From positions 34,510 through 98,509 of IMG/VR virus record IMGVR_UViG_3300046368_000687: a stretch of DNA of 64,000 nucleotides. The stretch is one strand, 5' to 3'. This document shows positions 15,771 through 40,612 of the stretch, in pieces; the stretch's first letter is position 1; every line of letters starts with the position of its first letter. Under the pieces are notes generated by a model. The model was not told the origin of the DNA. It did no database searches and saw only the letters and a list, made by a program, of their open reading frames with translations. The position numbers were made by a program, and so were the translations under genes. The DNA is from a virus.

Positions 15771-15775
15771 CCTAC

Positions 15776-20858: not shown

Positions 20859-22037
20859 ATGAGCAATTATTTACATACTATTGAAGATTGTCTTGAAACT
20901 ATAGCAGGGCTGTCTCGCGATTCCAGCATTGAAATTGATAAAAGCGATAAGACTATCATGTATAGTATTGCTAGACAAGTTTATAAAGGAAGTGCGTTAA
21001 CTGATAAACAGTATGCACTTATGAAAATAAAACTTGCTACATACAAAAATCAATTTTTAGAAAATAAGTTTGATAATTTTGATATAGCATTAGAATCATT
21101 ACGATTGCCATTAAGAAAAATTGATCGTAGAAAGTACATCAAGATAGTTAAAATTGAAAATGTTGAATGGATTAAAATTAGATTTCCGTTTAGTAAAAAA
21201 GATATTATGAAAATTAATGCTATTCCTAAATTTAGTTATCAGCATGATAAAGGTTCGCACGAACATTACTTTCAGTTAACTGAAAAGTCAATTGACAATA
21301 TTTGCTCTCAATTTATTAATACTCAATTTGAGATAGATAAAAAATTAGTAGATTGGTATGAAGAAATAAAAGTTATCAAATCTAACCCTTCAAAATATGT
21401 ACCAGGGTTGTGGAACGATGCATTATCAAACTTACCTGAAAAAGCTAATATGTATACTAAAAATTTTAGTCGTTTGCAATTGTTAGATCGTAAGCGTCAA
21501 CTAGGCATTGAATACATTACTTGCGATAAAGATAATACAATAGAAAATTTAATTGCACAACGTTCGCATCCAGAAATATGTCTTACTCCAAAAGAATTTT
21601 ATTTAGACGAAATAATTTTAGGATTAAAAAAACTAGAACGGTTTCCGTTGCTAGTAATAATTTCACCTGACAATCCGTTAACTGAACTTGCTGCTTTTGT
21701 TGAATCATTTGAACAACACAATTTTAATACTCAAAAACAAACAGTATTATTTAGATCTAAATCATCCGACGAATATAATGTAAACAATTATATTAAAGAT
21801 AAAAAATTAAATAATTGGCTTGACAATAGTACAGAAGTTGTATATATTAGTAAAGATAAACTACCTAAATTATTATTTAAAAATAACTGGCAGCCTCAAG
21901 CAACTATATCAATAAGCAGTATAAGAAACAATCATAAAGTTCAAAATTATATTGATTCATTATGCGATCTTATTATATATAACGACGATAGCCCAAGTAT
22001 TTTTAAAAACAAATGGAGACTAAATGGCTACGTGTAG
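20859..22037 (+). CDS. Unknown protein preceding uvsW, possible HARP-like region
   Basis: 392 residues, overlapping uvsW by 14 bases. No Walker A is visible. Residues 95-150 (WIKIRFPFSKKDI...IPKFSYQHDKG...YFQLTE) resemble the strand-helix pattern of the HARP/UvsW N-terminal substrate-recognition domain. The C-terminal half (PLLVIISPDNPLTELAAFV, then TEVVYISKDKLPKLLF) could be a degraded helicase-like fold. That reading is inference. Coupled to uvsW, so a UvsW partner is plausible. Confidence 0.6.
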   Translation: MSNYLHTIEDCLETIAGLSRDSSIEIDKSDKTIMYSIARQVYKGSALTDKQYALMKIKLATYKNQFLENKFDNFDIALESLRLPLRKIDRRKYIKIVKIENVEWIKIRFPFSKKDIMKINAIPKFSYQHDKGSHEHYFQLTEKSIDNICSQFINTQFEIDKKLVDWYEEIKVIKSNPSKYVPGLWNDALSNLPEKANMYTKNFSRLQLLDRKRQLGIEYITCDKDNTIENLIAQRSHPEICLTPKEFYLDEIILGLKKLERFPLLVIISPDNPLTELAAFVESFEQHNFNTQKQTVLFRSKSSDEYNVNNYIKDKKLNNWLDNSTEVVYISKDKLPKLLFKNNWQPQATISISSIRNNHKVQNYIDSLCDLIIYNDDSPSIFKNKWRLNGYV

Positions 22038-23487
22038 ATTGATAATTGAAGACGAAGTAAACATTAAACTAGAAGGACTAGACGTTGATGTACGGAGAAA
22101 GTTATCGAATGCTCTCAAGTTTGAAGTGCCTTACGCACGATATATGCCACAGTATAAACTTGGTCGCTGGGATGGAAAAGTTGCTTTTTTTGGTATTGGC
22201 GGTACTGGCTATGTTAATCATCTTGACACTGTTAGTCAAGTGCTACAAAAAAATAATGTTGAAATAGTTGATATTCAAGACAATAGACATCCTATACAAT
22301 TAGACTTTACACCAGTAACAGAAAACTACTGGAAGGATCAAGGCGTAGTATGGCCAGAAGGTCATCCAGCAGAAGGCGAAGATATTATTCTACGTGACTA
22401 TCAAGTAGAAGCAATTAATAACTTTTTGAATAACCCACAGAGCTTGCAACAGATTGCTACTGGCGCAGGTAAAACTATTACCACAGCAACGCTGTCACAC
22501 ATAACTGAGCCGTATGGTAGAAGTCTTGTGATTGTTCCTAACAAGTCGTTAGTAGAACAAACAGAAGAGGACTATATTAACTGCGGTCTCGATGTAGGGG
22601 TGTACTTCGGAGACAGGAAGATGTTAGGTAAGACTCACACTATTTGCACTTGGCAGAGTTTAAATATTCTAGACAAGAAGCAAAAAGACGGCTCAGCAGT
22701 GTTATCACTTGCAGAGTTTCTAGAAGGTGTAAGCACTATTATTGTCGACGAAGTACACCAAGCCAAAGCAGAAGTTCTTAAAAACCTGCTCACTCGCAAC
22801 CTACGTAATGCACCTATACGTTGGGGACTAACTGGTACAGTACCTAAAGAAAAGTTTGAGTTTGAAAGTATTCATGCTAGTCTTGGTCCTGTAATTGGCA
22901 ACATCTCGGCAAAAGAATTACAAGACAAAGGTGTACTGTCAGAATGTCATGTTAATGTAGTACAATTGATTGACACAGTAGCACACAGCGGTTACCAAGA
23001 AGAATTAAAATATCTTGTTAACAATCCAGCAAGAATAGAATATATAGGCAAATTATTAAACACAGTAAAAGAATCAGGCAATACATTAATACTAGTAGAT
23101 AGAATTAGCGCAGGCGAAATGCTTGCTGAACTTATACCAGGCAGCACATTTGTAAGCGGTGCTGTTAAAAACAAAGACAGGAAAGAAACATATGATACAA
23201 TCCGTGAAGGAACTAATGAGGTTATTATCGCGACCTATGGAGTTGCTGCCGTGGGTCTTAACATTCCTCGTATTTTTAACTTGGTTCTTTTGGAGCCTGG
23301 CAAGTCCTTTGTAAGAGTAATTCAATCTATTGGTAGAGGTGTAAGAAAGGCAAAGGACAAAGACTTCGTGCAAATATGGGACTTGACATCTACATGCAAG
23401 TTTGCGAAGCGGCACCTTACCCAACGTAAAAAGTTTTACAAAGAGGCGCAGTACCCATTCACTATCGAAAAAGTTGATTGGAATTAA
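22024..23487 (+). CDS. uvsW: UvsW-type SF2 helicase
   Basis: 487 residues (T4 UvsW: 503). The N-terminal domain shows PQYKLGRWDGKVAFF, as in T4 UvsW. Motif I ATGAGKT lies near residues 145-151, motif II DEVH at 242-245, and motif VI QSIGRGVRKAKD near 455. UvsW unwinds R-loops and branched recombination intermediates and drives the switch from origin- to recombination-dependent replication. Overlaps the upstream 392-residue gene. Confidence 0.93.
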   Translation: MATCRLIIEDEVNIKLEGLDVDVRRKLSNALKFEVPYARYMPQYKLGRWDGKVAFFGIGGTGYVNHLDTVSQVLQKNNVEIVDIQDNRHPIQLDFTPVTENYWKDQGVVWPEGHPAEGEDIILRDYQVEAINNFLNNPQSLQQIATGAGKTITTATLSHITEPYGRSLVIVPNKSLVEQTEEDYINCGLDVGVYFGDRKMLGKTHTICTWQSLNILDKKQKDGSAVLSLAEFLEGVSTIIVDEVHQAKAEVLKNLLTRNLRNAPIRWGLTGTVPKEKFEFESIHASLGPVIGNISAKELQDKGVLSECHVNVVQLIDTVAHSGYQEELKYLVNNPARIEYIGKLLNTVKESGNTLILVDRISAGEMLAELIPGSTFVSGAVKNKDRKETYDTIREGTNEVIIATYGVAAVGLNIPRIFNLVLLEPGKSFVRVIQSIGRGVRKAKDKDFVQIWDLTSTCKFAKRHLTQRKKFYKEAQYPFTIEKVDWN

Positions 23488-23488
23488 C

Positions 23489-23995: not shown

Positions 23996-24004
23996 GAGAA
24001 TAAA

Positions 24005-25711: not shown

Positions 25712-26565
25712 TAGTAACTGGACATAAAGGATTCATAGGTAATCACTTTTATAATTATATAAAAGATACGTACAACGTAACGGGCTATGATCAAAAAGAT
25801 AATAATAGTAAAAATCTAAGATACTCGGATGTAACTAGTTCAATGCCCGATACAGATGTTGTAGTACACTTAGCAGCAACTAATGGTACAAGACTTTTTT
25901 ATCAAAATCCTACAGATGTTTGTATCAACAACACACTGCCTACTATTAACTTGATCGAACGTTATAGAAACACTGATACAAAGTTTGTATTTGCTAGTAC
26001 ATGCGAAATATTCAACAGCACAATAGACAACGGTTACTACCATGTACCTACTGACGAAGCAGTACCAGTTATGTACAACGACATTACTAATCCACGTTGG
26101 AGTTATAGTATACCAAAAGCATTAGGCGAAAACCTAGTTGCTAATAGCGGACTTGAGTATCTTATCATACGCTACTTTAATGTATACGGTCCTGGACAAA
26201 TTGACCACTTTATAAATGAGTTTGTAGAACGTTGTAAACAAGGCGAGTACTATATCAAAGGCAACGACACACGTAGTTTTTGTTATGTTGACGATGCTGT
26301 GCGTATGACAGACATACTAATACAAACTGCTAGTAACCAAACAGTAAATGTAGGACAGGACGTTGAGACACGTATAAGTGTTGTAGCAAAATTAATTATG
26401 GGATACATGGGTATCAATCCTGATAGATTAGAAATACGTCCTGGTCCAGTTGGAAGTGCTACACGTAGATGTCCTGATACTACGCTAGTACAAACACTTA
26501 CAGGATTTACAGATTATACACCTTTAGAAATAGGGTTAAGAAAAACAGTAGAGAGTTTATTATGA
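25702..26565 (+). CDS. NAD-dependent sugar epimerase/dehydratase (SDR family)
   Basis: 287 residues. The nucleotide-binding TGHKGFIG lies at residues 6-13 and the catalytic YSIPK (Y135, K139) follows a Ser/Thr-rich ASTCEIF strand. RYFNVYGPGQ is the standard substrate-side motif of UDP-glucose 4-epimerase-like enzymes. The start is a TTG with AGGAAG upstream. Together with the following dehydrogenase it would supply a modified nucleotide sugar. Confidence 0.88.
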   Translation: MEVIVTGHKGFIGNHFYNYIKDTYNVTGYDQKDNNSKNLRYSDVTSSMPDTDVVVHLAATNGTRLFYQNPTDVCINNTLPTINLIERYRNTDTKFVFASTCEIFNSTIDNGYYHVPTDEAVPVMYNDITNPRWSYSIPKALGENLVANSGLEYLIIRYFNVYGPGQIDHFINEFVERCKQGEYYIKGNDTRSFCYVDDAVRMTDILIQTASNQTVNVGQDVETRISVVAKLIMGYMGINPDRLEIRPGPVGSATRRCPDTTLVQTLTGFTDYTPLEIGLRKTVESLL

Positions 26566-27353
26566 AACTAGGAATTATCGGAATGGGCGTTGTTGGAAAC
26601 GCAAATGCAACAGGATTTAGATTACTAGAACACGAAGTTGCAGAACACGATATCAAGTTTGATACTGAAATAACAGATTTAACAGATACCGAAGTTGTAT
26701 TCATGTGCTTACCAACACCTGAAACAAACGGTGCTTGCGATACATCGGTTATTGAAAATGTATTACAAGAACTTGTTGATATTAACTATCAAGGTGTAGC
26801 ATGTATACGTAGCACAGTCGAACCAGGCTTTACCGAACGTATGATAGACAAACATGAAACATTAACGATTTGTTGTGCTCCAGAGTTTTTGCGTGAACGT
26901 GCAGCAGCAGATGACTTTATTAATAATCATGAGCTACTTGCAATTGGTACTGATGATCCTTACGTATACAAAAAAATTGTAGAAGCACACGGACATTTAC
27001 CTAAGGCTGTAAAGCAATTAGCACCTACTGAAGCAGAAATACTCAAGTACTTTAATAATTCGTATGCAGCATTGCGTATTGTATTTGCAAACGTATTCTA
27101 TGAACTCTGTGAAAAGTTTGAGTGCGATTATTCGCAAGTTAAAGATGCATATGTACAAACTGGTAAAACAAAGAACTTCTATCTTGATGTAAATAATAGA
27201 TTGCGTGGATACGGTGGCATGTGCTTGCCTAAAGATGTTGCAGCACTTGCCCATACACTACAGGAAAATGAATTAAACTTTGATCTTATCGAGAGTCTTA
27301 AAAATGATAATGAAAAGTTTAAAACAACAACTTTTAGTGGTATGCGTAAATGA
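26562..27353 (+). CDS. UDP-glucose/GDP-mannose dehydrogenase-like, short form
   Basis: 263 residues. It has the N-terminal Rossmann motif (GIIGMGVVGNA), the STVEPGFTE and APEFLRE blocks, a central YFNNSYAALRI helix, and the catalytic Cys C221 in GYGGMCLPKD. Normal enzymes are about 430 residues; the C-terminal nucleotide-sugar binding domain is missing. Either it dimerises differently or oxidises an atypical substrate. Overlaps the epimerase by 4 bases. Confidence 0.82.
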   Translation: MKLGIIGMGVVGNANATGFRLLEHEVAEHDIKFDTEITDLTDTEVVFMCLPTPETNGACDTSVIENVLQELVDINYQGVACIRSTVEPGFTERMIDKHETLTICCAPEFLRERAAADDFINNHELLAIGTDDPYVYKKIVEAHGHLPKAVKQLAPTEAEILKYFNNSYAALRIVFANVFYELCEKFECDYSQVKDAYVQTGKTKNFYLDVNNRLRGYGGMCLPKDVAALAHTLQENELNFDLIESLKNDNEKFKTTTFSGMRK

Positions 27354-27634
27354 TAATTGATACACCTGAAAAAACTGAACTAGCACATGAAGCATTGATA
27401 TATGAAAATGCTAATGGTGTAATATATGCTAGATTTAGAGATGAGCCAAAGAAATCAAAATTTGAAGGACGTTGGATAATTGGCGGAGAATTAGAAGCTG
27501 TTAACGAAGCTATGGGAATAGTAAGTTACGACCAATGGAAAAATTTATTTGCATTAGCCGACAAGTATCCTACACTAAGAAAACAACTTGACAAAACTTT
27601 AGATGTGTATTATATTGTAAAGGATAAGGAATAA
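27350..27634 (+). CDS. Small unrecognised protein before kdsA
   Basis: 94 residues, ATGA overlap with the dehydrogenase and one base from kdsA. Contains VIYARFRDEPKKSKFEGRW. No motif recognised. Its conserved coupling to kdsA implies a linked function, but there is no direct evidence. Confidence 0.65.
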   Translation: MIIDTPEKTELAHEALIYENANGVIYARFRDEPKKSKFEGRWIIGGELEAVNEAMGIVSYDQWKNLFALADKYPTLRKQLDKTLDVYYIVKDKE

Positions 27635-27635
27635 A

Positions 27636-28409
27636 ATGAGAATTATAGCAGGCCCGTGTCAACACGAATCATTGCCGCAAAGTTTAGAGATTGCTCGCGA
27701 GTGTAAACGTGTATGCGATAAGTATGGTATTGAGTATTACTTCAAAGCAAGTTACGACAAAGCCAATCGTTCGAGTATTAAAGGCAAACGTGGTATGGGT
27801 ATGGAAGCAACACTAACTGACTTCCTAGCACTAAAAGTAGAACTAGGTGTAAAGACACTTACTGATGTACACGACTATGTACAGGTCGCACGTATTGAAA
27901 GAGAATTTAAAGATGCAGTTGATGTCTATCAGATACCTGCATTCTTGTGTAGACAGACTGACTTGATCCAAGCAGCTTGTGCTACAGATAAAATTGTTAA
28001 TATTAAAAAAGGACAGTTTATGGCACCCTGGGATATGAAAGGTGTACTAAGTAAAACAGAAGGCGCTAAAGACGTCTGGATAACTGAAAGGGGAACAAGT
28101 TTTGGTTACAATAATCTTGTCGTTGACTTTACTGGTTTGCAGTATATGCTTGACACTTATAACACTCCAATTGTGTACGATATTAGCCACTCGTGCCAAA
28201 AGCCCGGAGGCAATGGGGAATCTAGTGGCGGCAACAGGGATTATATTCCTGGTTTGGCTAGGGCAAGCAGTGCTCTTGGGATTACAGATTTTTTCATAGA
28301 AGTTCATCCTGATCCTGATAATGCACCAAGCGATGGGCCTAACATGCTACGCTTAGATAACTTCGAGGAGGTAGTACGTGACATCATCAGTTATTCTTAT
28401 TCCCGCTAG
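27636..28409 (+). CDS. kdsA: 3-deoxy-D-manno-octulosonate 8-phosphate synthase
   Basis: 257 residues (bacterial KdsA about 280). It condenses phosphoenolpyruvate with arabinose 5-phosphate to give Kdo-8-P, the first committed step to Kdo of LPS and some capsules. Diagnostic blocks are GPCQHE at residues 5-10, FKASYDKANRSS near 34-45, GVKTLTDVHD, PAFLCRQTDL and DISHSCQKPGG. The operon continues with kdsB, overlapping by 32 bases. No kdsC or kdsD was seen, so the host must provide those steps. Confidence 0.95.
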   Translation: MRIIAGPCQHESLPQSLEIARECKRVCDKYGIEYYFKASYDKANRSSIKGKRGMGMEATLTDFLALKVELGVKTLTDVHDYVQVARIEREFKDAVDVYQIPAFLCRQTDLIQAACATDKIVNIKKGQFMAPWDMKGVLSKTEGAKDVWITERGTSFGYNNLVVDFTGLQYMLDTYNTPIVYDISHSCQKPGGNGESSGGNRDYIPGLARASSALGITDFFIEVHPDPDNAPSDGPNMLRLDNFEEVVRDIISYSYSR

Positions 28410-29052
28410 GTACGGTAGCACACGCTTCCCTGGAAAACCTTTGGCACTGTTAGATGGTGTTCCTATGATAAAGCGTGTGTATGACGCTTGTACAGCGTCT
28501 AAGATACCAACATATGTGCTTACTGATGACCAAAACATATACAATGTAATAGGTGCAAATTGCCTATTAGATCACCGCGATTACGAAAACGGAACTGAAA
28601 GATGTGCAGGTGCTGTTGCTAAGTTTGATATATTAGATCAATACAAAAACTTTATAAACGTACAAGGTGATATGCCTGATGTAACACTAGAGATGATTGA
28701 AAAGGCACAATGGCACTTACAACACTATCCTGTTACCACAGTGTTTACTCAAATGCAAGAAGACAAACAGAACGACCCTAACTCAGTTAAGATGGTACGT
28801 GCTGGCGACCAAGCCCTATGGTTTGGAAGAGGTATGACCGGCTACGGTGACTGGCACTTAGGAGTATACGGATATAAGCGTAATGCGTTAGAAATGTATA
28901 CTACTTTGCCTGTAGAACGTGAAGAAGAAGTTGAAAAATTAGAACAACTACGCTGGCTAAAAAGTGGTTGGCAAATTGGTTGTTTGAGTGTACAATACAA
29001 TGGAGTAGAGATTAATTCGCCAAGTGATGTAGAGGAATGGCATGCCAAATAA
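28378..29052 (+). CDS. kdsB: CMP-Kdo synthetase (3-deoxy-manno-octulosonate cytidylyltransferase)
   Basis: 224 residues (KdsB about 245). It activates Kdo with CTP. The GTG start is preceded by GAGGAGG. IPARYGSTRFPGKPL at the start is the CTP-binding loop. Blocks NCLLDHRDYENGTERCAGAV, VNVQGDMPD-like (INVQGDMPDV) and GVYGYKRNALEMY match the family. The enzyme is shortened, mainly near the C-terminus, but keeps the catalytic blocks. Confidence 0.93.
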   Translation: MTSSVILIPARYGSTRFPGKPLALLDGVPMIKRVYDACTASKIPTYVLTDDQNIYNVIGANCLLDHRDYENGTERCAGAVAKFDILDQYKNFINVQGDMPDVTLEMIEKAQWHLQHYPVTTVFTQMQEDKQNDPNSVKMVRAGDQALWFGRGMTGYGDWHLGVYGYKRNALEMYTTLPVEREEEVEKLEQLRWLKSGWQIGCLSVQYNGVEINSPSDVEEWHAK

Positions 29053-29512
29053 AGAACTAGACTTATTTAAAGAACTTATTCCAAGTATTGATATGGGCAT
29101 CAAAGAGCTGTATGATGCAGCAAGTGATGTTGGTAAGAAAGATATCAAAGGTGACTTATGGAATCTCAATCGTTACATCAGTAGTGTTAAAGGCAAGTTC
29201 GAAGACCAAGCATTAGCAGTATTCAAAGTAAATGAATACTACAATAAAAACTGGAATGATATTGGTGGAACAAATCACATCAAACTACAATGGCAGTTAT
29301 TGTGTGTTGCTGGCAAAACTGGAAAGAAAATGTTTCATCCGTGGATTGGTCTTAAAAAGAAAAAAGATGAAAGCAGTAAAGCAGCAAAATTGCTATCACA
29401 AATATATCCTGAAATGAAATTAGACGAGGTTGAATTACTTGCTAGAATATCTACAAAAAAAGAAATCAAGCAGTTTGCCAAAGAGCATGGTTACGACAAA
29501 GTTGACATCTAA
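29042..29512 (+). CDS. Unknown protein, possible gp62-like clamp-loader small subunit
   Basis: 156 residues. The order LWNLNRYISSVKG, VNEYYNKNW, LQWQLLC, FHPWIGLKKKK and VELLARI resembles the layout of marine T4-type gp62 proteins, the small subunit of the sliding-clamp loader. Neither gp44 nor gp45 is in this window, which weakens the call. Overlaps both kdsB and the following gene by short stretches. Confidence 0.4.
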   Translation: MPNKELDLFKELIPSIDMGIKELYDAASDVGKKDIKGDLWNLNRYISSVKGKFEDQALAVFKVNEYYNKNWNDIGGTNHIKLQWQLLCVAGKTGKKMFHPWIGLKKKKDESSKAAKLLSQIYPEMKLDEVELLARISTKKEIKQFAKEHGYDKVDI

Positions 29513-30182
29513 ACACACATGCGAATATTGTAATAAGAGTTATGTTAAAGAAAGCACACTCTTAGCGCATATGTGTGAGCCCAAAAGACGCTGGCTACAA
29601 AAAGATGAAAAACGTGTTACGTTGGGCTTTTATGCATTCCAACGATTCTATACTTTAAGTGCAGGACACAAAAAAGAAAAAACGTATGAAGAGTTTTCAA
29701 AGAGTAGTTTTTATAATGCCTTTGTTAAGTTTGGAAGTTTTGTATCTAATGTGCGTCCTCTTTATCCTGACAAGTATATCGATTATGTTGTTACTAGTAA
29801 TGTAAAACTCGACCATTGGTGCCGAGAAGAAATGTACGAAGCATATGCTGTAGAGCTTATACGTAAAGAAGGCGTTGAAACTGCACTTGAACGTAGTATT
29901 GCAACAATGACAAAATGGGCTGAAGAGAAAAATAGTCGATTCAACGATTACTTTAGATATGTAAATGAAAACAGACTCACATGGGATATCAAAGACGGTA
30001 AAGTATCTCCGTGGCTAGTACTAAATTGTAGTTCAGGCAAACAAGCATTAAGTAGTTTATCTGGGGAACAGTTAGGAATGTTAAGCAATGTTTTAGATCC
30101 AAGTCACTGGGCAATGCGATTTAAAAGACAACCAAAGGATATTGAACTTATTAAAAATATTGCAAAAAAGGCGATGCTCTAA
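29487..30182 (+). CDS. Zinc-finger-containing protein of unknown function
   Basis: About 231 residues from the ATG at 29487 (an upstream start at 29430 would overlap the previous gene by 83 bases). HTCEYCNKSYVKESTLLAHMC near residue 10-30 is a C2H2-like finger: Cys-x2-Cys, then a helix with His and a fourth ligand. The rest is helical with RFKRQPKD near the end. A replication or DNA-binding role is possible. It is coupled to the preceding gp62-like candidate. Confidence 0.6.
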   Translation: MVTTKLTSKHTCEYCNKSYVKESTLLAHMCEPKRRWLQKDEKRVTLGFYAFQRFYTLSAGHKKEKTYEEFSKSSFYNAFVKFGSFVSNVRPLYPDKYIDYVVTSNVKLDHWCREEMYEAYAVELIRKEGVETALERSIATMTKWAEEKNSRFNDYFRYVNENRLTWDIKDGKVSPWLVLNCSSGKQALSSLSGEQLGMLSNVLDPSHWAMRFKRQPKDIELIKNIAKKAML

Positions 30183-30820
30183 TGACTGTGTATTCTTTAA
30201 AAACAATCGACGATTTAGAATACGCAAAAAGAGATTTAAATTTTGTTGTACACAAAACATCTTCTTTTGAGTTCTATAAAAATATTGTTAAACACGCATC
30301 GCCACAATACAATCGATGGAATCAATTAGTTATAAGATATTTTAAAAATAAAAGTAAACAATCATATACAAATCGAGACTTTATACATAACCCAATAGAT
30401 AATTATAATTCACTTCTTGATGTATATTTTATTTTAATAAAAGATAGATTCATTAGAGATCCAATTACCATACACGACGATGGACAACGAATTGAAATAC
30501 AACCTGGATTAAAACGTTCTTTATTCATTCCTTATTTGCCTAACCAAGAAATAATATATTTTAAATTTAGAAAATTTGGGCGTACTGACGACAGTATTCG
30601 ATTTCTTAGTGATAATATAGTAATAGAAACATTATGGGGCGAAAATATTACTACACAAGTACGTCCGTATGATAGACAACAAAGCTATAAAAATTTAGTA
30701 ACCCAAGAAGATATTGAGATTTATTTAAAAGACGATACTGTATATTTTAATGATATCGAAGTCTTTAAAAAAGACCACGACTGGAAAATTTGTTTACCTA
30801 ATTTAATGGAGGAAAAATGA
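30182..30820 (+). CDS. Unknown protein, paralogue of the gene at 31925
   Basis: 212 residues. The middle (DPITIHDDGQRIEIQPG, then RSLFIPYLPNQEI) aligns with DPISINYLNNKYFCHPG and LSFFQFFPDKEI in the protein at 31925, so the two are related by duplication. Both flank the CysC-like kinase/nucleotidyltransferase pair. No known family recognised. Confidence 0.6.
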   Translation: MTVYSLKTIDDLEYAKRDLNFVVHKTSSFEFYKNIVKHASPQYNRWNQLVIRYFKNKSKQSYTNRDFIHNPIDNYNSLLDVYFILIKDRFIRDPITIHDDGQRIEIQPGLKRSLFIPYLPNQEIIYFKFRKFGRTDDSIRFLSDNIVIETLWGENITTQVRPYDRQQSYKNLVTQEDIEIYLKDDTVYFNDIEVFKKDHDWKICLPNLMEEK

Positions 30821-31242
30821 AGATATTAATTTTTGGGTTGCCTGGTAGCGGCAAGACTACATTAGCAAAACCTTTTGCAGAACTAATTGGCGGCGTCCAT
30901 CTAAACGCAGACGTAGTACGCACAAGTTACGATGATTGGGACTTTACACCAGAAGGACGTATGCGCCAAGCACAACGTATGAAACATCTAGCAGACGGTG
31001 TTGTAATGGCAGGCAAGATTGCTGTTGCTGACTTTGTTTGCCCAACTCCAGAAGCACGGTTAGAATTTAATCCAGATTATACAGTGTGGATGGATACTAT
31101 TTCTCGTGGCCGTTTTGAAGACACAAATGATATGTTTGAAACGCCAGAGCTTGTAGACTACCATGTAGAGAAATGGTTTGACAATGCACACGAACAACTA
31201 ATGCCAGTAGTACAACGTTGGATGGGTATTAATCGTGTTTGA
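30817..31242 (+). CDS. Adenylylsulfate kinase-like P-loop kinase
   Basis: 141 residues with Walker A GLPGSGKTT at residues 7-15, HLNADVVR near 28-35 and TISRGRFEDTNDMFE near 94-108. This order matches CysC (APS kinase)-like enzymes, somewhat shortened. The gene overlaps the nucleotidyltransferase that follows by 8 bases. A kinase plus nucleotidyltransferase pair may activate a sulfate or small metabolite for decoration of a glycan. The substrate is not certain. Confidence 0.7.
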   Translation: MKILIFGLPGSGKTTLAKPFAELIGGVHLNADVVRTSYDDWDFTPEGRMRQAQRMKHLADGVVMAGKIAVADFVCPTPEARLEFNPDYTVWMDTISRGRFEDTNDMFETPELVDYHVEKWFDNAHEQLMPVVQRWMGINRV

Positions 31243-31642
31243 TAGATTTAAACCTACAACGCAAATGCTAGGACGCTGGCAACCTTGGCATGCTGGTCAT
31301 ACTGAACTATTTAAGCGGGCTCTTGCTGAAACAGGACAAGTATGTATACAGATTAGAACTGTGCCACAAGACACTGATGCATCAGGTGGACGTACAGCAA
31401 CACAAGATGATAATCCATTTATTGTTACAGATGTTATGGGAAATATTAAAAAAGAACTAGCAAAAGAAGGTTTTACATATGACAAAGAATATGTTATTAT
31501 GATTGTTCCTAATATTGTAGATATTAGTTATGGCAGAGGTGTAGGATATACCTTGACAGAACACGATTTGGGTGCTACAATACATAACATAAGTGCAACA
31601 AAAATTCGTGCAGAAATGAGACGTAATGGCAAACTTGATTAA
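31235..31642 (+). CDS. HxGH nucleotidyltransferase
   Basis: 135 residues, GTG start. GRWQPWHAGH (HAGH at 19-22) and C-terminal ISATKIRAEMR are the two nucleotide-binding signatures of the cytidylyltransferase/ATP-sulfurylase/NMNAT superfamily. Compact like a stand-alone catalytic domain. Its coupling to the CysC-like kinase suggests the two act in sequence. Confidence 0.78.
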   Translation: MFDRFKPTTQMLGRWQPWHAGHTELFKRALAETGQVCIQIRTVPQDTDASGGRTATQDDNPFIVTDVMGNIKKELAKEGFTYDKEYVIMIVPNIVDISYGRGVGYTLTEHDLGATIHNISATKIRAEMRRNGKLD

Positions 31643-31916
31643 ATATATTGTAGACTTTTGCAAAGAAAGTTATAGGCTGTCACCTATTGCATTTTATTGC
31701 GAAATGGTCGAAACAACATTATTGATTGTTGCAAGTGCTATTCTAACATTTACAGTATTAGACCCAGCAACAAAGATTTTTATTCCTTTGTATTTGCTAG
31801 GCAGTATACTCGGAGTTATAAGTACAGTAATACGTAAAGCAGCATTTGCAATAGTCTTGTGTGCATGGTTTGTTGTAATGAACAGCATTGCTATGGTGCA
31901 ACTGTTTATACTATAG
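31626..31916 (+). CDS. Small integral membrane protein
   Basis: 96 residues with three likely membrane spans (about 30-48, 51-66 and 71-95). Strongly resembles the SemiSWEET or small multi-span layout but has no clear PQ-loop. Overlaps the nucleotidyltransferase by 17 bases. Confidence 0.6.
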   Translation: MANLIKYIVDFCKESYRLSPIAFYCEMVETTLLIVASAILTFTVLDPATKIFIPLYLLGSILGVISTVIRKAAFAIVLCAWFVVMNSIAMVQLFIL

Positions 31917-31924
31917 GATAGAAC

Positions 31925-32629
31925 ATGCCTAATCTCGAAAAAAAAGTAAACGGAAATGTATGTGATCAAACTAGCAACATTATCAAAACAAAAGAACATT
32001 TTTTACTAGCAAAAGAAAAATATAATTTTCGTATTTGTAAAGTTACACTTGGAAATCTTGTAAAGATTACAAATCTTATAGGACTTGATACACATAGAAG
32101 AACATGTGAAAGATTAAATGTGTTAGAACAAAAATTGTATGACATACATTTTGTTCGTAATGAAGCATTATTTAGATCTCTACTTATAACTTATGAACTA
32201 GCAAATTCTAAATGGAAAGATCCAATTAGTATTAATTATCTTAACAATAAATATTTTTGTCATCCAGGAACAACTAGACTTTCTTTTTTTCAATTTTTTC
32301 CAGACAAAGAAATAAATGTTATGCTTTGGGGAGACGAATGTGAACTAGACAAATATACAATTGATTATGTCTTTGACAACCGGCCGTTTGAATTGCTGCA
32401 TCAAAAAATGTACCAACATATACACAAAGGTTATGTAAACAATTTACAATGGCTTCCACGTAGAAAAAGTAATGTTTCTCATTCAGGATTTTTTTCTAAT
32501 AATTATGAATGTGAAATAACAAAAAATAATATATTCTTAGATAACAAATGCATTTACAAAATCATAGACAATAGATGGCATATAAGAGTGCCATCGGGTT
32601 GGTTTAGTTTTGATAGCACGAAAGTATAA
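31925..32629 (+). CDS. Unknown protein, paralogue of the gene at 30182
   Basis: 234 residues, related in the middle to the protein at 30182. Aromatic-rich with C-terminal RWHIRVPSGW. Starts 8 bases after the membrane protein, with TAGGATAG as ribosome site. Function unknown. Confidence 0.6.
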   Translation: MPNLEKKVNGNVCDQTSNIIKTKEHFLLAKEKYNFRICKVTLGNLVKITNLIGLDTHRRTCERLNVLEQKLYDIHFVRNEALFRSLLITYELANSKWKDPISINYLNNKYFCHPGTTRLSFFQFFPDKEINVMLWGDECELDKYTIDYVFDNRPFELLHQKMYQHIHKGYVNNLQWLPRRKSNVSHSGFFSNNYECEITKNNIFLDNKCIYKIIDNRWHIRVPSGWFSFDSTKV

Positions 32630-32631: not shown

Positions 32632-33192
32632 ATGCCAGATATTGATATTGACTTTGCCGATCGTAATCTTATACTAGATAAGATAGAACATCGTGTGGCA
32701 AAATTAGATACAGGTAAAAAACACAACACTGGTGTATATGTTACAGAGTGTCCTCATAATCCTATAGACAATCTATCTACTATTGAACACAAGACCGCAG
32801 AAGAACGTGGATACTTTAAACTAGACTTTCTTAACGTAAGCATATACAAAGACGTTAAGAACGAAGCACACTTAAACACACTAATGGAGAAGGAACCGTT
32901 ATGGCAACTATTGGAACACAAAGACTTTTCAGATCAAGTCTTTCATCTAAACGGGCACAGCGAACTATTGCAGCAATTGAAACCTACTTCGGTAGAACAG
33001 TTAGCAGCGACACTAGCGATAATTCGGCCTGCCAAGAGGCATCTTGCCAACGAAACATGGCAAACGATATTCAAAGAAGTTTGGAAGAAGCCTGAAGACG
33101 GCAGTTACTATTTTAAGAAAGCACATGCTGTAGCATATGCATTATCTTGTGTTGTACATGTAAATTTAATCTGTGAAAGTCTTACGTACTAG
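32632..33192 (+). CDS. Miniature DnaE-like (C-family DNA polymerase) protein
   Basis: 186 residues. It opens with PDIDIDFADR (D3, D5, D7), the counterpart of the PDFDVDF metal-binding motif of bacterial Pol III alpha (E. coli D401/D403). YFKLDFLN (D65) matches the KFDFLGL block with the third catalytic Asp (D555). VFHLNGHSELLQQLKPTSVEQLAATLAIIRP follows the FQLES...KPxSFEDLVALxALYRPGP block, and KKAHAVAYAL matches the FNKSHAAAYAL block. The PHP domain, thumb, beta-binding and OB domains are absent. Whether it polymerises is unknown. Confidence 0.7.
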   Translation: MPDIDIDFADRNLILDKIEHRVAKLDTGKKHNTGVYVTECPHNPIDNLSTIEHKTAEERGYFKLDFLNVSIYKDVKNEAHLNTLMEKEPLWQLLEHKDFSDQVFHLNGHSELLQQLKPTSVEQLAATLAIIRPAKRHLANETWQTIFKEVWKKPEDGSYYFKKAHAVAYALSCVVHVNLICESLTY

Positions 33193-33556
33193 CAGATCGT
33201 TTTATAAGTTGAACACTTTTGCGTTTAACACGTTTGATTGACAAGTTGTTGATATTAACACACGGACCAATTACTACTTTAACGTTTTTACTATTCATTG
33301 TAAGCAAACTATAATTAAATCTTTCCATTTCTCTTTTAAGGAAAATATTAATTGGTATCATTCTGTTTGATTCCCACCACCAAATATCTCCAAGGTCTAA
33401 TAATAATTCCTTTTCATCAATAGTTTTTAATGAGGTGTATATAAACATACTTGTTACAAATGCATCTTGATTTGATATGATGCCCACGTATTCGTTGCCG
33501 CCGTAAGCGACAACACTAATATATGGATACTGATTCTCTATTTCTTTTAATAACAT
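33182..33556 (-). CDS. Leftward unknown protein
   Basis: 124 residues, ending inside the DnaE-like gene (11-base tail-to-tail overlap). WWWESNRMIPINIFL is a distinctive centre, and the C-terminus is basic (KRVKRKSVQLIKRS). Its start lies back to back with the rightward gene at 33590. No family recognised. Confidence 0.6.
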   Translation of the reverse strand: MLLKEIENQYPYISVVAYGGNEYVGIISNQDAFVTSMFIYTSLKTIDEKELLLDLGDIWWWESNRMIPINIFLKREMERFNYSLLTMNSKNVKVVIGPCVNINNLSIKRVKRKSVQLIKRSAST

Positions 33557-33589: not shown

Positions 33590-34378
33590 ATGCAACTAAT
33601 ACCTAGATATTTAGTCGAAAACAAAATAGACGTTGTATCAAACGATACTGGATTTGTTGTGGAGTATAGACCAGTGTATAGTAGACAATTAAAAATTTAT
33701 AGAGGCATCGATAACGCTATTCAATTTAGATTTATCAATGCGGATCAAAAGCCAGTATGGATAACAGATACTCCGTACATAGTAATATTTGATGAAAACA
33801 ATTCAAAGATAATCGAAAGAGCTTGTACGGTTACAGACGACGGTAGTACAACTTCAACCAAAGGCATGTTTAATGTATCGCTTACTGAAAACGATTTATT
33901 AAATGTAAAACAGCAATATTTAAAATATAATATCTATATGTCAAACGGCTCCACAAATACTGTTACATATGCAAATAGAGATTTTGAAAGTGCTGGCGTA
34001 ATTATGCTAGACAGTGTTGCATACCCAGGTCCAAAATTAAGTAAAGAAATAATTAATTTTAAAGAAGAAAATTCGCAATGGTATGCAGGCAGCGATGACT
34101 CAACTAAGATTACAGCCGAGCCTGGGCTTAATGGCAACGAAGCATTACATACACTTGCAATATACACAGATTCATATGTTGGCGATATTGAGATACAAGG
34201 GACACTTGATAATCAAATTACAGGACTAAACAACTGGACGACATTGTCAACTATCACATTTACTGGCAATGAGTCTCAGCCTGTACCAACTAATATAAAC
34301 GGTGTGTTTAGTTATCTAAGATTAAAAGCAACTGCTGATCCAACAGACAAAGTAACAAAGGTTCTAATTAGAAATTAA
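33590..34378 (+). CDS. Probable virion structural protein (fibre or baseplate type)
   Basis: 262 residues, beta-rich. The N-terminal half alternates hydrophobic strands (FVVEYRPVYSRQLKIYRG), and the C-terminal third (DIEIQGTLDNQITGLNNWTTL, then FSYLRLKATADP) resembles the small beta-sandwich repeat of the next gene. Preceded by a late promoter element. A tail fibre, collar or whisker component is possible. Similarity is structural impression only. Confidence 0.55.
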   Translation: MQLIPRYLVENKIDVVSNDTGFVVEYRPVYSRQLKIYRGIDNAIQFRFINADQKPVWITDTPYIVIFDENNSKIIERACTVTDDGSTTSTKGMFNVSLTENDLLNVKQQYLKYNIYMSNGSTNTVTYANRDFESAGVIMLDSVAYPGPKLSKEIINFKEENSQWYAGSDDSTKITAEPGLNGNEALHTLAIYTDSYVGDIEIQGTLDNQITGLNNWTTLSTITFTGNESQPVPTNINGVFSYLRLKATADPTDKVTKVLIRN

Positions 34379-34772: not shown

Positions 34773-35750
34773 ATGAGCATCGTATCTGATCTATTGACAG
34801 CCTATCTGCCTTCGAAGCGTAAAACTACACCTAGTGGTTGGACTAGCTTCAATGCACCTTGCTGTCATAACAATGGCAACACTACTGATACCAGAGGTCG
34901 CGGTGGACTTATCAGTGAAGGCGATGTTATAAGCTATCACTGTTTCAACTGTGGATACAAAGCTAGTTGGCAACCAGGACGTAGTCTTAGTTACAAGTTT
35001 AAAAAGTTACTAGAATGGTGCAATACACCCGATAGCGAAATTAATAAACTTGCACTAGATGTAATGCGTATAAACGAAGGTGTTGAAGTAGCAGAGCGCA
35101 AGATAGAACTGCCTACGTTTGAAACTGTACCACTACCACCAGATGCTGTAAAAATTGCAGATATAAAAGACTTCAACAAGTTTAGTATAGCTATACTAGA
35201 ATATATAGCTGCTCGTAACTTAAACTTAGATGATACAGATTACTACTGGAGCCCTAGCTTAGGGTATCGTGACAGGCTTATTATTCCATTTTATTATGAG
35301 AAACGTATTGTAGGATGGACTGCTAGAACTATTACAGAAGATAAAAAGCCCAAGTATCTTACAGAAACACAGCCAGGCTTTGTATATGGACTTGACGAAC
35401 AAGGCTACAACAAAGTGTTTGCTATTGTATGTGAAGGACAGGTAGATGCTATTCACATAGATGGATGTGCGCTAGGCGGTAGTGAAATCAATGACCAACA
35501 AGCAATGCTATTAAATAGACTTGCAAAAGATGTTATAGTTGTGCCTGACAGAGATAGTGCAGGTAGTAAGTTAGTTGAGCAAGCTATTGAACTAGGATGG
35601 AGTGTTAGTCTACCACTTTGGGATTCAGACATTAACGATGTAGGAGATGCTGTGAGTAAATACGGTAGACTATATACATTGTATAGTATTGCAAATGCTG
35701 CCGAAAGCAGCCCACTTAAAATTAGATTGAGAGCAAAGAAATGGTTTTAA
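34773..35750 (+). CDS. gp61: DNA primase (gp61-like)
   Basis: 325 residues (T4 gp61: 342). The zinc-binding domain has the CCH pair near residue 25 and CFNCGY near 52. The TOPRIM domain shows IVCEGQVDAI near 218-227 and VPDRDSAG near 256-263. It makes RNA primers for lagging-strand synthesis with the gp41 helicase, which lies five genes downstream. Confidence 0.9.
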   Translation: MSIVSDLLTAYLPSKRKTTPSGWTSFNAPCCHNNGNTTDTRGRGGLISEGDVISYHCFNCGYKASWQPGRSLSYKFKKLLEWCNTPDSEINKLALDVMRINEGVEVAERKIELPTFETVPLPPDAVKIADIKDFNKFSIAILEYIAARNLNLDDTDYYWSPSLGYRDRLIIPFYYEKRIVGWTARTITEDKKPKYLTETQPGFVYGLDEQGYNKVFAIVCEGQVDAIHIDGCALGGSEINDQQAMLLNRLAKDVIVVPDRDSAGSKLVEQAIELGWSVSLPLWDSDINDVGDAVSKYGRLYTLYSIANAAESSPLKIRLRAKKWF

Positions 35751-36138: not shown

Positions 36139-36694
36139 AATATTATTAGTTGCTCTTGAAGCAGAACTACCATACAAGCAGGCACCCAATGATTACAAAG
36201 TAGTATACACTGGTGTAGGCAAAGTTAATGCAGCATTTGCAGCAACACAAGCTATTGCAGAAGCACACAGTCTAGGCTTTCATCCTGAAGTATACAACTA
36301 CGGTACAGTCGGAAGTTGTCAAGCAGAGCTAAATGGTATACATCGTATTACAAAGTTTGTACAGCGTGACATGAACGCAGAGCCACAAGCACCAAGAGGC
36401 GTTACACCTTTTGAAGCAGGACTGCCTTACTTAGACTTCTCTCCTGATATGACATCTAGTCTTACACTAGGCACAGGAGATCAGTTTGTACACGAACTTG
36501 AAACATGGTTAATAGAAAACAAAATTGACATAGTTGATATGGAAGCGTATGCTATTGCCAGTGTATGCAAACGTATGAATGTGCAATTCACCTGCTACAA
36601 GTATATAACTGATTATGTAGGCACACCGCATCAAGCAGACACGTGGCAAACAAATGTAGCCAACGGCGTACAAGAGGTATTACAGTTACTATGA
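36128..36694 (+). CDS. MTA/SAH nucleosidase-like phosphorylase-superfamily enzyme
   Basis: 188 residues from a TTG start. YTGVGKVNAA near residue 27-36, IVDMEAYAIASV near 138-149 and KYITDYVG near 158-165 match the glycine loop, substrate-binding Met-Glu and catalytic Asp of nucleoside phosphorylases/MTA-SAH nucleosidases. Several methyltransferases and a radical SAM protein in this genome produce the by-products such an enzyme removes. Overlaps the carbamoyltransferase gene by 4 bases. Confidence 0.78.
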   Translation: MKYRILLVALEAELPYKQAPNDYKVVYTGVGKVNAAFAATQAIAEAHSLGFHPEVYNYGTVGSCQAELNGIHRITKFVQRDMNAEPQAPRGVTPFEAGLPYLDFSPDMTSSLTLGTGDQFVHELETWLIENKIDIVDMEAYAIASVCKRMNVQFTCYKYITDYVGTPHQADTWQTNVANGVQEVLQLL

Positions 36695-38160
36695 TTACTT
36701 GGGGGATAAGTGCAAACAGTCATGATGCTGCTCTAGCAGTATTTTCAAATGACGGACTAGAATTTGCTAGTCATAGTGAACGTTTCAGCGGTGTAAAAAA
36801 CGATGCTCACTTAAATAAAGAACTAATCAATTATGCAAGAAAGTGGGGAGAACCTGATGAAATTATTTGGTACGAAAGACCCTTTAGAAAAACTATTAGA
36901 CAACTTCGAGCAGGACAAGGATTCAACTTTAGGGAAAACAATATCAATCGTTATCTTCGATCTTATGGGATATCTGCTCCTGTTAGTTATATTTCTCATC
37001 ACCGTTCCCATGCTGCTGCCGGTTATTATACTACGTCTTTTACAGATGCCACTGTTGTTTGTATTGACAGTATTGGAGAATTTGAAACGTTAACTGTATG
37101 GCACGGCAAAGGAGATACACTCGAAAAGAAATATGTACAAAGTTATCCGCATAGTGTAGGACTATGGTATAGTGCTATGACACAGCGTATCGGTTTAAAG
37201 CCACAAGAAGACGAGTATATTCTTATGGGTATGGCAGCTTATGGCGACCCGGATAGATTATATCAAACAATTTACAATGATTTTATTGACGCTATAGGCA
37301 AGCCTGTAACATTTAACAACAACTTACATCGAGGGTGTATGGACTGGATGCCCGAGTTACAGTCAGAACAAGACTACTTTGACATAGCGGCAGCTACACA
37401 GAAGGTATACGTAGAACTACTTAACCAAATTTTAGCATGGGCAGCAAGTCAAGGTTGGAGTTCTAATCTGGTACTCATGGGAGGGTGCGCATTAAATTGT
37501 TCGGCTAATCACCTAGCCTATAAGTATTTTGATGACGTATGGATTATGCCTAATCCGGGTGATGCAGGAAGTGCTATAGGGTGTGTGTTGGCACACAAAA
37601 ATAAAACTATGCTTATGGATCATGCGTTCTTAGGATATGATATAGAAGGAGAATATCCAGTTGAAGAAACAATCAAAGAACTTGCCCAAACTGGCATCTG
37701 CGGAGTCGCGTCGGGTAGGGCAGAATTTGGCCCGAGGGCTTTTGGTAATCGGTCTTTGCTTGCTGATCCTCGTGGCAATGACATCAAAGACAGAGTCAAT
37801 GTCATCAAACAAAGGCAACAGTTTAGACCATTTGCACCAGTAGTGCTTGAAGAACATGCAAGTGATAACTTTGAAGGATACTACAACAATTATATGCAGT
37901 ATACCTCAACCTGTAAACATCCAGAATTGTACCCTGCAATCTGTCACGCAGACGGAACAAGCAGAGTACAAACAGTACCAAACAACAATAGCGGAATTAG
38001 AAAACTGTTAGAAGCATGGTATGCAAAAACAGGTTGTCCGATGTTACTAAATACCTCGCTTAATATCAAAGGCAAACCTATTGTAAATACTACAGAAGAT
38101 GCACTAGCATTTGAAAAGCATTATGGAGTAAAGGTATGCACGGCTGCTGCAACAACGTAA
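36691..38160 (+). CDS. NodU/CmcH-type carbamoyltransferase
   Basis: 489 residues from the ATG at 36691 (ATGA overlap; the in-frame start at 36643 lies inside the previous gene). ISANSHDAALAVF at the start and HHRSHAAAGYYTT near residue 100 are metal/phosphate-binding blocks of the N-terminal Kae1-like domain, and GRAEFGPRAFGNRSLLADPR near 337 is the hallmark of the C-terminal domain. Such enzymes O-carbamoylate sugars. Likely modifies the glycan built by the surrounding genes. Confidence 0.92.
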   Translation: MITWGISANSHDAALAVFSNDGLEFASHSERFSGVKNDAHLNKELINYARKWGEPDEIIWYERPFRKTIRQLRAGQGFNFRENNINRYLRSYGISAPVSYISHHRSHAAAGYYTTSFTDATVVCIDSIGEFETLTVWHGKGDTLEKKYVQSYPHSVGLWYSAMTQRIGLKPQEDEYILMGMAAYGDPDRLYQTIYNDFIDAIGKPVTFNNNLHRGCMDWMPELQSEQDYFDIAAATQKVYVELLNQILAWAASQGWSSNLVLMGGCALNCSANHLAYKYFDDVWIMPNPGDAGSAIGCVLAHKNKTMLMDHAFLGYDIEGEYPVEETIKELAQTGICGVASGRAEFGPRAFGNRSLLADPRGNDIKDRVNVIKQRQQFRPFAPVVLEEHASDNFEGYYNNYMQYTSTCKHPELYPAICHADGTSRVQTVPNNNSGIRKLLEAWYAKTGCPMLLNTSLNIKGKPIVNTTEDALAFEKHYGVKVCTAAATT

Positions 38161-38288
38161 TACAATCTCAGCATTCAGAAGTAATTGAAGTTGACAACCA
38201 CAAGTTTTGTGTTATAATAAGATATTGTAAAACGTGCGGACAAGTAAAATCGCAATCACATATAACGGAAGCAAAGAATGGCAACTAG
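38136..38288 (+). CDS. Short zinc-ribbon-like protein bridging two genes
   Basis: 50 residues. It starts inside the end of the carbamoyltransferase gene and ends 11 bases into the helicase gene. Paired cysteines (CC near residue 4 and CKTCG near 31) suit a small zinc ribbon. It fills the only gap between the two large genes with suitable overlaps. Confidence 0.6.
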   Translation: MHGCCNNVIQSQHSEVIEVDNHKFCVIIRYCKTCGQVKSQSHITEAKNGN

Positions 38289-39690
38289 ACAAAACACAGA
38301 CTATGGATATGATATACAGAAAGTATATCTTGAAATGATGATGAGCGATGCCGAGAGCTTTGTACGTTGTCAGGCTGTGTTTGATCCAGATAGTTTTGAT
38401 AGAAGACTAAAGGCACCAGCAGAGTTTTTAAACAATTATGTTAGTGAACACAATGCATTGCCTACGTTTGATATGATTAATGCAGCAACTGATATTAATT
38501 TAAAAGATCCAGGGCAGCTACAAGAAAATCACTATGACTGGCTGATGCAAGAGTTTGAAACGTTTAGTAAACACAAGGCACTAGAAGCAGCAATCCTAAA
38601 GAGTGCCGACTTGTTAGAGAACGGTGACTATGGGCAGTGCGAGGATCTAGTTAAGAAGGCTGTACAGATTGGTTTGCAAAAAGACTTGGGTACAGACTAC
38701 TATGCTGATCCAAGAGCTAGACTAGAAGGCATCAAGAGTACTAACGGACAGGTAAGCACAGGCTGGCCAGCTATGGATAAGAAACTGTTTGGCGGCTTCA
38801 ACAGAGGCGAGCTGAATATCTTTGCAGGTGGTTCGGGTGCAGGTAAGAGTTTGTTCCTTGCTAACATTGGCGTTAACATGGCTGAGAAAGGCTTGAATGT
38901 AATCTACTTGACACTAGAGCTTGCAGAGAGTCTAGTTAGTATGAGACTTGATAGTATGACCACAGGCATTCCAAGTCGTGATGTGTTTAAGAGCATTGAC
39001 GATGTTGAAATGAAGGTTAAGATTATTGGCAAGAAGTCGGGTGCATTCCAAGTCAAGTATATGCCAAGTGGCAAGACAGCAAACGATGTACGTAGCTACA
39101 TTAAAGAGTATGAGATTAAAACAGGCAAGAAGGTAGACGTACTGCTGATTGACTACTTGGACTTGTTGATGCCAGCAAGCACAAAGGTAAGTGCAGAGAA
39201 CTTGTTTATCAAAGACAAGTACGTAAGTGAAGAACTACGTAACCTAGCAATGGAATTGAACACAGTGTTTGTAACAGCAGCACAGTTAAACAGAGGTGCT
39301 GTGGAAGAGATTGAATTTGATCACTCGCACATCAGTGGTGGACTTAGTAAGATCCAGACTGCGGACAACGTGTTTGGTATCTTTACAAGTAGAGCTATGC
39401 GTGAACGTGGACGCTATCAGCTACAGTTGATGAAAACACGTAACTCAAGTGGAGTAGGACAAAAGATTGATCTAGGCTTTAACTTAGACACACTGCGCAT
39501 TGAAGACTTGGGCGATGATGATGACGATGGTGCAACTAGTACAACTACAGGCAGCAACATCTTAGACAATATTAAACGTAGCAATGCACCAGTACAAGAT
39601 CCAGTTAGTGGATCAAGTGCGCCAAAGCTCAAAGCAGATGCTGATAGTACGCAACTACGTAACTTTATTAATAACTTGGGTACTGAATGA
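38278..39690 (+). CDS. gp41: Replicative DNA helicase (gp41/DnaB family)
   Basis: 470 residues (T4 gp41: 475). An N-terminal helical domain is followed by a RecA-like ATPase with GGSGAGKS near residues 184-191, the Walker B strand VDVLLIDYLDLL near 285-296, and the conserved Arg/Gln region AAQLNRG. It unwinds DNA at the fork and recruits the gp61 primase. The C-terminus is Asp/Ser/Thr-rich and probably flexible. Confidence 0.95.
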   Translation: MATRQNTDYGYDIQKVYLEMMMSDAESFVRCQAVFDPDSFDRRLKAPAEFLNNYVSEHNALPTFDMINAATDINLKDPGQLQENHYDWLMQEFETFSKHKALEAAILKSADLLENGDYGQCEDLVKKAVQIGLQKDLGTDYYADPRARLEGIKSTNGQVSTGWPAMDKKLFGGFNRGELNIFAGGSGAGKSLFLANIGVNMAEKGLNVIYLTLELAESLVSMRLDSMTTGIPSRDVFKSIDDVEMKVKIIGKKSGAFQVKYMPSGKTANDVRSYIKEYEIKTGKKVDVLLIDYLDLLMPASTKVSAENLFIKDKYVSEELRNLAMELNTVFVTAAQLNRGAVEEIEFDHSHISGGLSKIQTADNVFGIFTSRAMRERGRYQLQLMKTRNSSGVGQKIDLGFNLDTLRIEDLGDDDDDGATSTTTGSNILDNIKRSNAPVQDPVSGSSAPKLKADADSTQLRNFINNLGTE

Positions 39691-39920
39691 AGGTATGTAT
39701 TGCTAGTTCAAACACGCCAGACTTTCTTGAGCTTAGTCCGTGGGATCCGTTTGCACATCAAGTTGGTGAAACGGTTGCAGATGAAATTAAAAAATACAGC
39801 AGTCGTATGTGGGTCGAGTATACACCTGACAAGATGTATTATTATGCTGAACTATCACAAAAGCATTTTACGTTTTTAAAACTTAAACATTCAGAGCTAG
39901 ATTTTGTTGGAGAGAAATAA
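39687..39920 (+). CDS. Small unknown protein after helicase
   Basis: 77 residues, ATGA overlap with the helicase and adjoining the next gene directly. Sequence includes LSPWDPFAHQVGETVADEIKK. No motif recognised. Confidence 0.65.
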   Translation: MKVCIASSNTPDFLELSPWDPFAHQVGETVADEIKKYSSRMWVEYTPDKMYYYAELSQKHFTFLKLKHSELDFVGEK

Positions 39921-40607
39921 ATGGAGATGGATAATTCAGCATATCCTGAATTAATAAATCAAGAAATCAATTGGTTGCCTGGGGATACCAAGCAACTGTA
40001 CAAATACAATCTCAAACAAAATGCACAAGAACTTTCTCCATGGATCAACAATTCTTTTACATACAAGTTCAACAGCAAAGGGTTTAGATGCAAAGAGTTT
40101 GATGTAGAAGATAATGCGGTATTCTTAGGTTGCAGTTACACCATAGGCATAGGGTTGCCTATACAAAACACCTGGGCAACATTGGTAGCACAAGAGCTAG
40201 ATTTAGCCTGTTATAACTTAGGACTAGGTGGCGGTTCGTGGGATAGCATATACAGGATTAGTTCGTATTGGATTGAAAAATTAAATCCTAAATTTGTTTT
40301 TATACTGGAGCCGCCTAGTATTCGATATGAAGTTATTCCTTATGGCAACGTGAGCATACATGAACATCATGTATTTGAAAACACACCTTGGGGAAATCTT
40401 TTTCAGCATAAACAAAACTACAAATTAAACAAACAAAAAAATGTTACTGCATTGAAAACATTTCACAACAACATGTTTATTATTGACAATGACAGAGATT
40501 GGTTTATGGACAATCATGTGGATACTGCTAGAGACTTAGCACATCCTGGTATACAAACAAATCAAAGACTAAAAGAGAAAGTACTAGCTGTACTTGATAA
40601 TAAGTAG
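39921..40607 (+). CDS. SGNH/GDSL-like hydrolase, Cys-type block I
   Basis: 228 residues. VFLGCSYTIGIGLP near residues 67-80 is a GDSL-like block in which the Asp is replaced by Cys, followed by YNLGLGGGSWDSIYRIS near 98-114 and a C-terminal DLAHPG segment with His. This GCSxTxG variant is common in phage SGNH-like proteins. A glycan acyltransferase or esterase role is plausible. Confidence 0.65.
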   Translation: MEMDNSAYPELINQEINWLPGDTKQLYKYNLKQNAQELSPWINNSFTYKFNSKGFRCKEFDVEDNAVFLGCSYTIGIGLPIQNTWATLVAQELDLACYNLGLGGGSWDSIYRISSYWIEKLNPKFVFILEPPSIRYEVIPYGNVSIHEHHVFENTPWGNLFQHKQNYKLNKQKNVTALKTFHNNMFIIDNDRDWFMDNHVDTARDLAHPGIQTNQRLKEKVLAVLDNK

Positions 40608-40612
40608 TTATA

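Follow-up and report, generated by a model that had tools for sequence, protein, structure and literature searches.

The locus and its 186-residue gene

The window analysed in this study, a stretch of 64,000 nucleotides from a viral record of 98.5 kb that is itself a fragment, contains an open reading frame that opens with ATG, closes with TAG and encodes a protein beginning MPDIDIDF. We assigned it as the C-terminal half (C-half) of a split minimal DNA polymerase III alpha, and its coordinates are given in Table 1 with those of its active-site codons and recurring neighbours. The protein matched the "DNA polymerase" family PHROG 11778 with E = 3.5e-58, residues 3-183 aligning with positions 8-194 of the 197 in the profile. 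The match to the large DnaE family PHROG 405 was weak (E = 8e-9). No PHP, DNA_pol3_alpha or HHH domain was found above the curated cut-offs in the 186-residue protein; the Pfam finger model alone matched, with a sub-threshold score of 16.3 bits (cut-off 22), and NCBIfam TIGR00594 gave 14.5 bits as compared to a cut-off of 434. A single-sequence phmmer search against the PDB yielded marginal matches only (E 0.4), and therefore profile and fold comparisons were used for this protein.

Table 1. The C-half gene, its active-site codons and its recurring neighbours, with coordinates in the window. Neighbour counts are over loci with enough flanking DNA.
Feature	Coordinates	Strand	Occurrence or basis
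UvsW-type DNA helicase, T4-like replication region, upstream of the C-half gene	22024..23487	+	43/44 loci
PHROG 11058 protein, normally close upstream of the C-half gene	29430..30182	+	108/109 loci
C-terminal half of split minimal DNA polymerase III alpha (PHROG 11778), 186 aa	32632..33192	+	family profile, fold, conservation
Codons D3-I4-D5, DxD metal-binding pair of the palm	32638..32646	+	137/137; aligned with MPDIDIDF of solved Pol III alpha chains
Codons 31-34 (HNTG), KHAGG counterpart, directly after the missing thumb	32722..32733	+	H31 and G34 invariant; profile alignment to DnaE
Codons K63-L64-D65, third catalytic Asp block (KxD, cf. KFDFLGL)	32818..32826	+	K63 and D65 137/137; profile alignment to DnaE
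Codons 132-135, RPAK of the fingers	33025..33036	+	R132 and P133 invariant; K135 136/137
Codons 161-165, FKKAH of the fingers (cf. FNKSH of DnaE)	33112..33126	+	F161 and H165 invariant; aligned with solved Pol III alpha
Convergent small gene (PHROG 11637), overlapping the 3' end of the C-half gene	33182..33556	-	opposite strand in 132/133 loci
Virion structural protein (PHROG 14467)	33590..34378	+	112/121 loci
DNA primase (PHROG 47)	34773..35750	+	109/112 loci
DnaB-type replicative helicase (PHROG 19)	38278..39690	+	43/43 loci

The search for further examples that the original prediction had proposed was productive. tblastn matched the C-half to 63 cultured phage records, with query coverage of 80% or more in every case, and a scan confirmed it in at least 567 IMG/VR stretches. 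The cultured carriers include PA5oct-like phages, Phosso, Atu_ph07, 121Q/PBECO4, RaK2, GAP32, CBB, SCTP-2 and XacN1. The copies are intact and nearly constant in length where read. The window gene is about 48-53% identical to the versions of PA5oct-like phages, Atu_ph07 and Phosso and about 37% identical to those of the Rak2 type. It belongs to an abundant and apparently marine metagenome branch, the label "marine" resting on a remark in the original prediction and on abundance in metagenome contigs. Compared with its marine relatives, the window gene gave dN/dS values of 0.06-0.17 (median 0.11, 69 pairs). The reading frame is a genuine gene under strong purifying selection; a spurious frame or a chance resemblance is ruled out by the PHROG match, the structure and the dN/dS values.

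The C-half gene is located just upstream of the primase and DnaB-type helicase genes in nearly every locus, and the cultured phages keep the same gene order. The primase partner offered as one option in the original prediction may fit this position. All recurring neighbours share its strand with the exception of the PHROG 11637 gene, whose fixed opposite-strand overlap may regulate expression. The PHROG 11058 gene and the C-half gene are separated by about 2.4 kb (30182-32629) with a small kinase-like gene, an NMNAT-like gene and hypothetical genes, named by eye. Of 127 related loci, about 20 have the kinase-like and NMNAT-like genes, and the frame at 31925-32629 is present in none of 136; this rarity indicates a variable insertion spot. 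Elsewhere in the window, a large gene block (14604-29052 and 36643-43158) contains several lookalikes of sugar and surface-polysaccharide enzymes, which by eye are epimerase, KDO-8-P synthase-like, CMP-KDO synthetase-like, glycosyltransferase-like, carbamoyltransferase-like and radical SAM-like genes.

Predicted fold, active site and missing parts

The original prediction took the protein for a miniature relative of Pol III alpha, and our results agree with it. PDIDIDF (D3 and D5), YFKLDFLN (K63 and D65), KPTS...IRP and FKKAHAVAYAL were all found in the reading frame, so that the protein has the blocks of both palm and fingers as well as the full set of catalytic aspartates. An AlphaFold2 model of the C-half, made with 65 aligned homologues, had a mean pLDDT of 90.8, and its Foldseek matches at a probability above 0.1 were C-family polymerases without exception. 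In VIA-align, C-half residues 1-186 were placed on residues 461-838 of Thermus Pol III alpha (3e0d_A; Z 9.6, 184 aligned residues, 3.8 A, 22% identity) and on residues 400-781 of E. coli Pol III alpha (Z 8.9, 178 aligned). DnaE or PolC-type polymerases filled the top 14 rows, and the next, unrelated row reached only Z 3.2. Superposition on the Pol III palm had been suggested as a check, and the predicted fold matches the palm and fingers of Pol III alpha from end to end, minus the thumb and part of the fingers.

With bacterial DnaE (E. coli 2hnh, Thermus 2hpi and 4iqj, mycobacterial 5lew and 7pu7) the C-half shares the palm and finger fold and the catalytic DxD, KxDFL, KH..G, RP and FxKxH blocks. 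Unlike bacterial DnaE, it is devoid of the PHP, thumb, clamp-binding, OB and tau-binding parts, and its fingers are partly missing. PHP, thumb, clamp-binding and OB domains were recognised neither in this chain nor in that of the N-terminal half (N-half) described below. The full-length phage DnaE proteins of PHROG 405, such as those of Bacillus phage Bolokhovo and Gordonia phage Lambo, are distantly homologous to the C-half; they are single chains of about 1000-1200 residues, and the one scanned, that of Bolokhovo, has PHP and HHH domains.

Conservation was examined in alignments of 137 C-halves and 88 N-halves, which include the diverged pair of Alishewanella phage Slicko01. Residues D3, D5, D7, H31, G34, K63, D65, R132, P133, F161 and H165 are identical in 137 of 137 C-halves, many of which are close relatives and hence do not represent 137 independent events; the active-site conservation persists down to about 35% identity. 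W151, a non-catalytic residue, is nearly invariant. The possibility that a host dnaE was copied and that the C-half is its decaying remnant or serves as a decoy was considered, because the C-half is far shorter than DnaE and falls below the Pfam and NCBIfam cut-offs, and the CBB genome paper described the alpha subunit of a relative as "truncated" (PMC5259590). A remnant is difficult to reconcile with hundreds of intact copies of nearly constant length, strong purifying selection, an invariant active site and fixed synteny. The inactive decoy offered in the original prediction is unlikely, given that all 137 homologues, down to about 35% identity, retain D3, D5, K63 and D65. We rejected a pseudogene or decoy on this invariance, and give a remnant of host origin next to no credence.

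The first and third catalytic aspartates are separated by 62 residues in the 186-residue protein. The catalytic residues of E. coli Pol III alpha, which we take to be D401 and D555, are about 154 apart, and the earlier estimate of about 90 residues gone between the catalytic blocks is therefore correct. When the profiles of the C-half and of full-length phage DnaE are aligned, KHNTG falls on the KHAGG motif and YFKLDFLN on KFDFLGL. Because homology resumes at the KHAGG counterpart, the part absent between the catalytic blocks is the thumb, whose limits in Pol III alpha are general knowledge. From RP to FxKxH the C-half has 27 residues in place of about 105 in full-length DnaE, and thus about 78 finger residues have been lost. 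The lost stretch includes the invariant Arg-Lys pair of full-length phage DnaE (R708, K709), presumably the region of E. coli R709/R710, which contacts the incoming dNTP. With the thumb and about 78 finger residues gone, the Arg-Lys stretch among them, template-directed DNA synthesis cannot be taken for granted.

The loss of the thumb (from PDIDIDF to KHNTG) and of the finger residues with the Arg-Lys pair, together with the retention of all metal-binding residues and of the Gly-Ser (GS) motif in the N-half, would also suit an active nucleotidyltransferase in which the two halves add nucleotides to ends, primers or some other substrate and do not copy a template. However, the finger blocks KPTS...RP and FKKxH are still conserved, and the replication synteny fits a primed-template substrate. 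We regard such a transferase as unlikely, though deserving of some weight.

The partner gene and the split point

Iyer et al. (2021) described jumbo phages of group 2.2, which use a family B polymerase and also carry a minimal Pol III alpha as two proteins encoded by distant genes, the N-terminal part binding NTP and the C-terminal part binding Mg and template (PMC7824862). The split minimal Pol III alpha, predicted in 2021, is thus of a known kind, and the window gene is its C-part. The two agree in family, size and missing domains, in the two-gene split and in the T4-like replication setting, where relatives have a family B polymerase. They differ in that the window gene comes from the apparently marine metagenome branch and its own N-half is not in the sequenced record. 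In other published work, the Atu_ph07 genome paper contains alpha and epsilon annotations (PMC6102473), and in a survey of marine jumbo phages about half of the members of one group had the PF07733 domain (PMC9123017).

The N-half is PHROG 11127, with PF07733 and a GxGRGSS motif, and its residues G151, G153, R154, G155 and S156 are identical in 88 of 88 sequences. A PF07733 search detected it as a standalone gene of about 170-185 residues in Atu_ph07, Phosso, Paride, PBECO4 and two 236-kb marine contigs; N-halves were also found in two further large marine contigs with the C-half and in 12 Rak2-type genomes. Among the 60 listed cultured phages with the C-half, 59 have the N-half, and the exception is a 109-kb record. 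The two genes lie 14.7-224 kb apart in the cultured phages where both positions were compared, and adjacent or fused halves were not found among 229 loci. In the window's own 98.5-kb fragment the N-half was not found with PF07733, a single N-half protein or an N-half profile, so the pairing is seen in relatives only.

The original prediction also allowed for a minimal polymerase acting by itself. The C-half is predicted to fold confidently alone and carries the three aspartates, but it starts at PDIDIDF, without the GS motif and the N-terminal palm, and in nearly every complete relative a different gene supplies that missing part. The idea of a self-sufficient enzyme does not hold up against this separate gene for the N-terminal palm with its Gly-Ser nucleotide-binding motif, and we judge it very improbable.

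The N-half proteins end with ...EFL(R/K/E/N), which is equivalent to FERFL; the C-halves start at PDIDIDF or a few residues before it. A model of the N-half had modest confidence (pLDDT 68.5, with the first ~70 residues unassigned) and aligned with residues ~270-393 of E. coli Pol III alpha (Z ~10-11, 102-112 aligned). Placed on the 5lew sequence, the last N-half residue falls at 406 and the first C-half residue at 413. Because the N-half ends at E. coli residue 393 and the C-half starts at 400, the two chains together are predicted to make one palm, which in these models and alignments they cover with a gap of about 6 residues and zero overlap. This arrangement is unlike that of bacterial DnaE; here the palm is cut into two chains, and the GS motif lies in the N-half gene of the relatives.

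A cut at the same junction (...FERFLN / PDIDTDF...) is present in the dnaE of Cellulophaga phage phi13:1 (KC821625.1, 31606-35206). Unlike the window system, that dnaE consists of two adjacent genes with the full DnaE domain set and represents a separate lineage. Its cut is flanked by a 52-residue tail and a 17-residue head without DnaE match, which look like a short split intein, and intein-mediated fission at the FERFLN/PDIDTDF site might be the origin of such splits.

The diverged pair of Alishewanella phage Slicko01 (OQ508956.1) consists of a C-half at 67570-68181 (-) and an N-half at 79020-79532 (-), both annotated as hypothetical proteins only. The genome is circular and 141 kb in size, and it has a family B polymerase that reads as two open frames. 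The split enzyme is therefore not limited to phages above 200 kb.

A proposed role beside the family B polymerase

A family B polymerase was present in every large genome checked that has both halves. It was not found in the window's own record, the 98.5-kb fragment, and neither it nor the N-half was found in three other records (101, 167 and 262 kb). Because the N-half and family B polymerase genes are about 28-31 kb apart in the four marine contigs that hold them, a shared missing region is the simple reading of this double absence. The longest of the three, the marine IMG/VR contig G001 (261,806 bases, classed linear), has the C-half without a detected N-half or family B polymerase and is either an incomplete record or a real exception. 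A proofreading partner was also sought. A standalone RNase_T family exonuclease accompanies the C-half in only 4 of 10 records, and we rejected it as a constant companion.

The window gene encodes the C-half of a split Pol III alpha, and we consider it probable that the assembled pair has polymerase activity of low processivity and operates, probably at the primosome, alongside the phage's family B replicase. The C-half would be the metal- and template-binding part of a C-family polymerase in T4-like large phages, and the N-half, from its distant gene, would supply the N-terminal palm part with the GxGRGSS nucleotide-binding motif. The chains would meet in a short loop just before PDIDIDF and rebuild a Pol-beta-like palm with trimmed fingers. 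Possible tasks of the assembled pair are lagging-strand primer extension and gap filling. The homology, the fold, the active-site conservation, the partner gene in relatives, the split point, the synteny and the selection were all obtained by computation; mutual binding of the halves, DNA synthesis by the pair and its place of action are what we infer. A search of the literature yielded no published biochemical test of the split minimal Pol III alpha.

The constant position near the primase and DnaB-type helicase genes, the small size and nearly invariant non-catalytic residues such as W151 led us to consider that the C-half might be a non-catalytic primosome subunit whose Pol III fold has been retained for binding, such as one that connects the helicase, the primase and the family B polymerase. 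Inactive relatives usually lose their catalytic residues, whereas D3, D5, K63 and D65 are invariant in the 137 C-halves, and the N-half, encoded separately and with its GS motif intact, has been kept as well. Given this invariance of the active site, we hold a purely structural role to be improbable. Within the preferred reading of an active pair, we propose more tentatively that two pieces of about 185 residues form a working second polymerase, of the C family and linked to the primosome, which would extend primers in the manner of Pol alpha or act on the lagging strand in a phage that also has a family B replicase.

To the published system this study adds a large, apparently marine branch, a mapped split point, fixed synteny, near-perfect co-occurrence of the two halves, the invariance of the active site across 137 C-halves and 88 N-halves, and a pair in a 141-kb phage. 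The pair is more than an oddity of a few cultured jumbo phages, as C-halves are common in environmental viral contigs and the position of the cut is fixed within a single loop. If active, it would be, to our knowledge, the smallest C-family (Pol III) polymerase core, and it would raise the question of why a second polymerase is retained beside the primase in a phage that already has a family B replicase. Both halves are small enough for co-expression and direct assay. If the proposal is true, a replisome of mixed bacterial and archaeo-eukaryotic style would be widespread in large phages, including marine ones.
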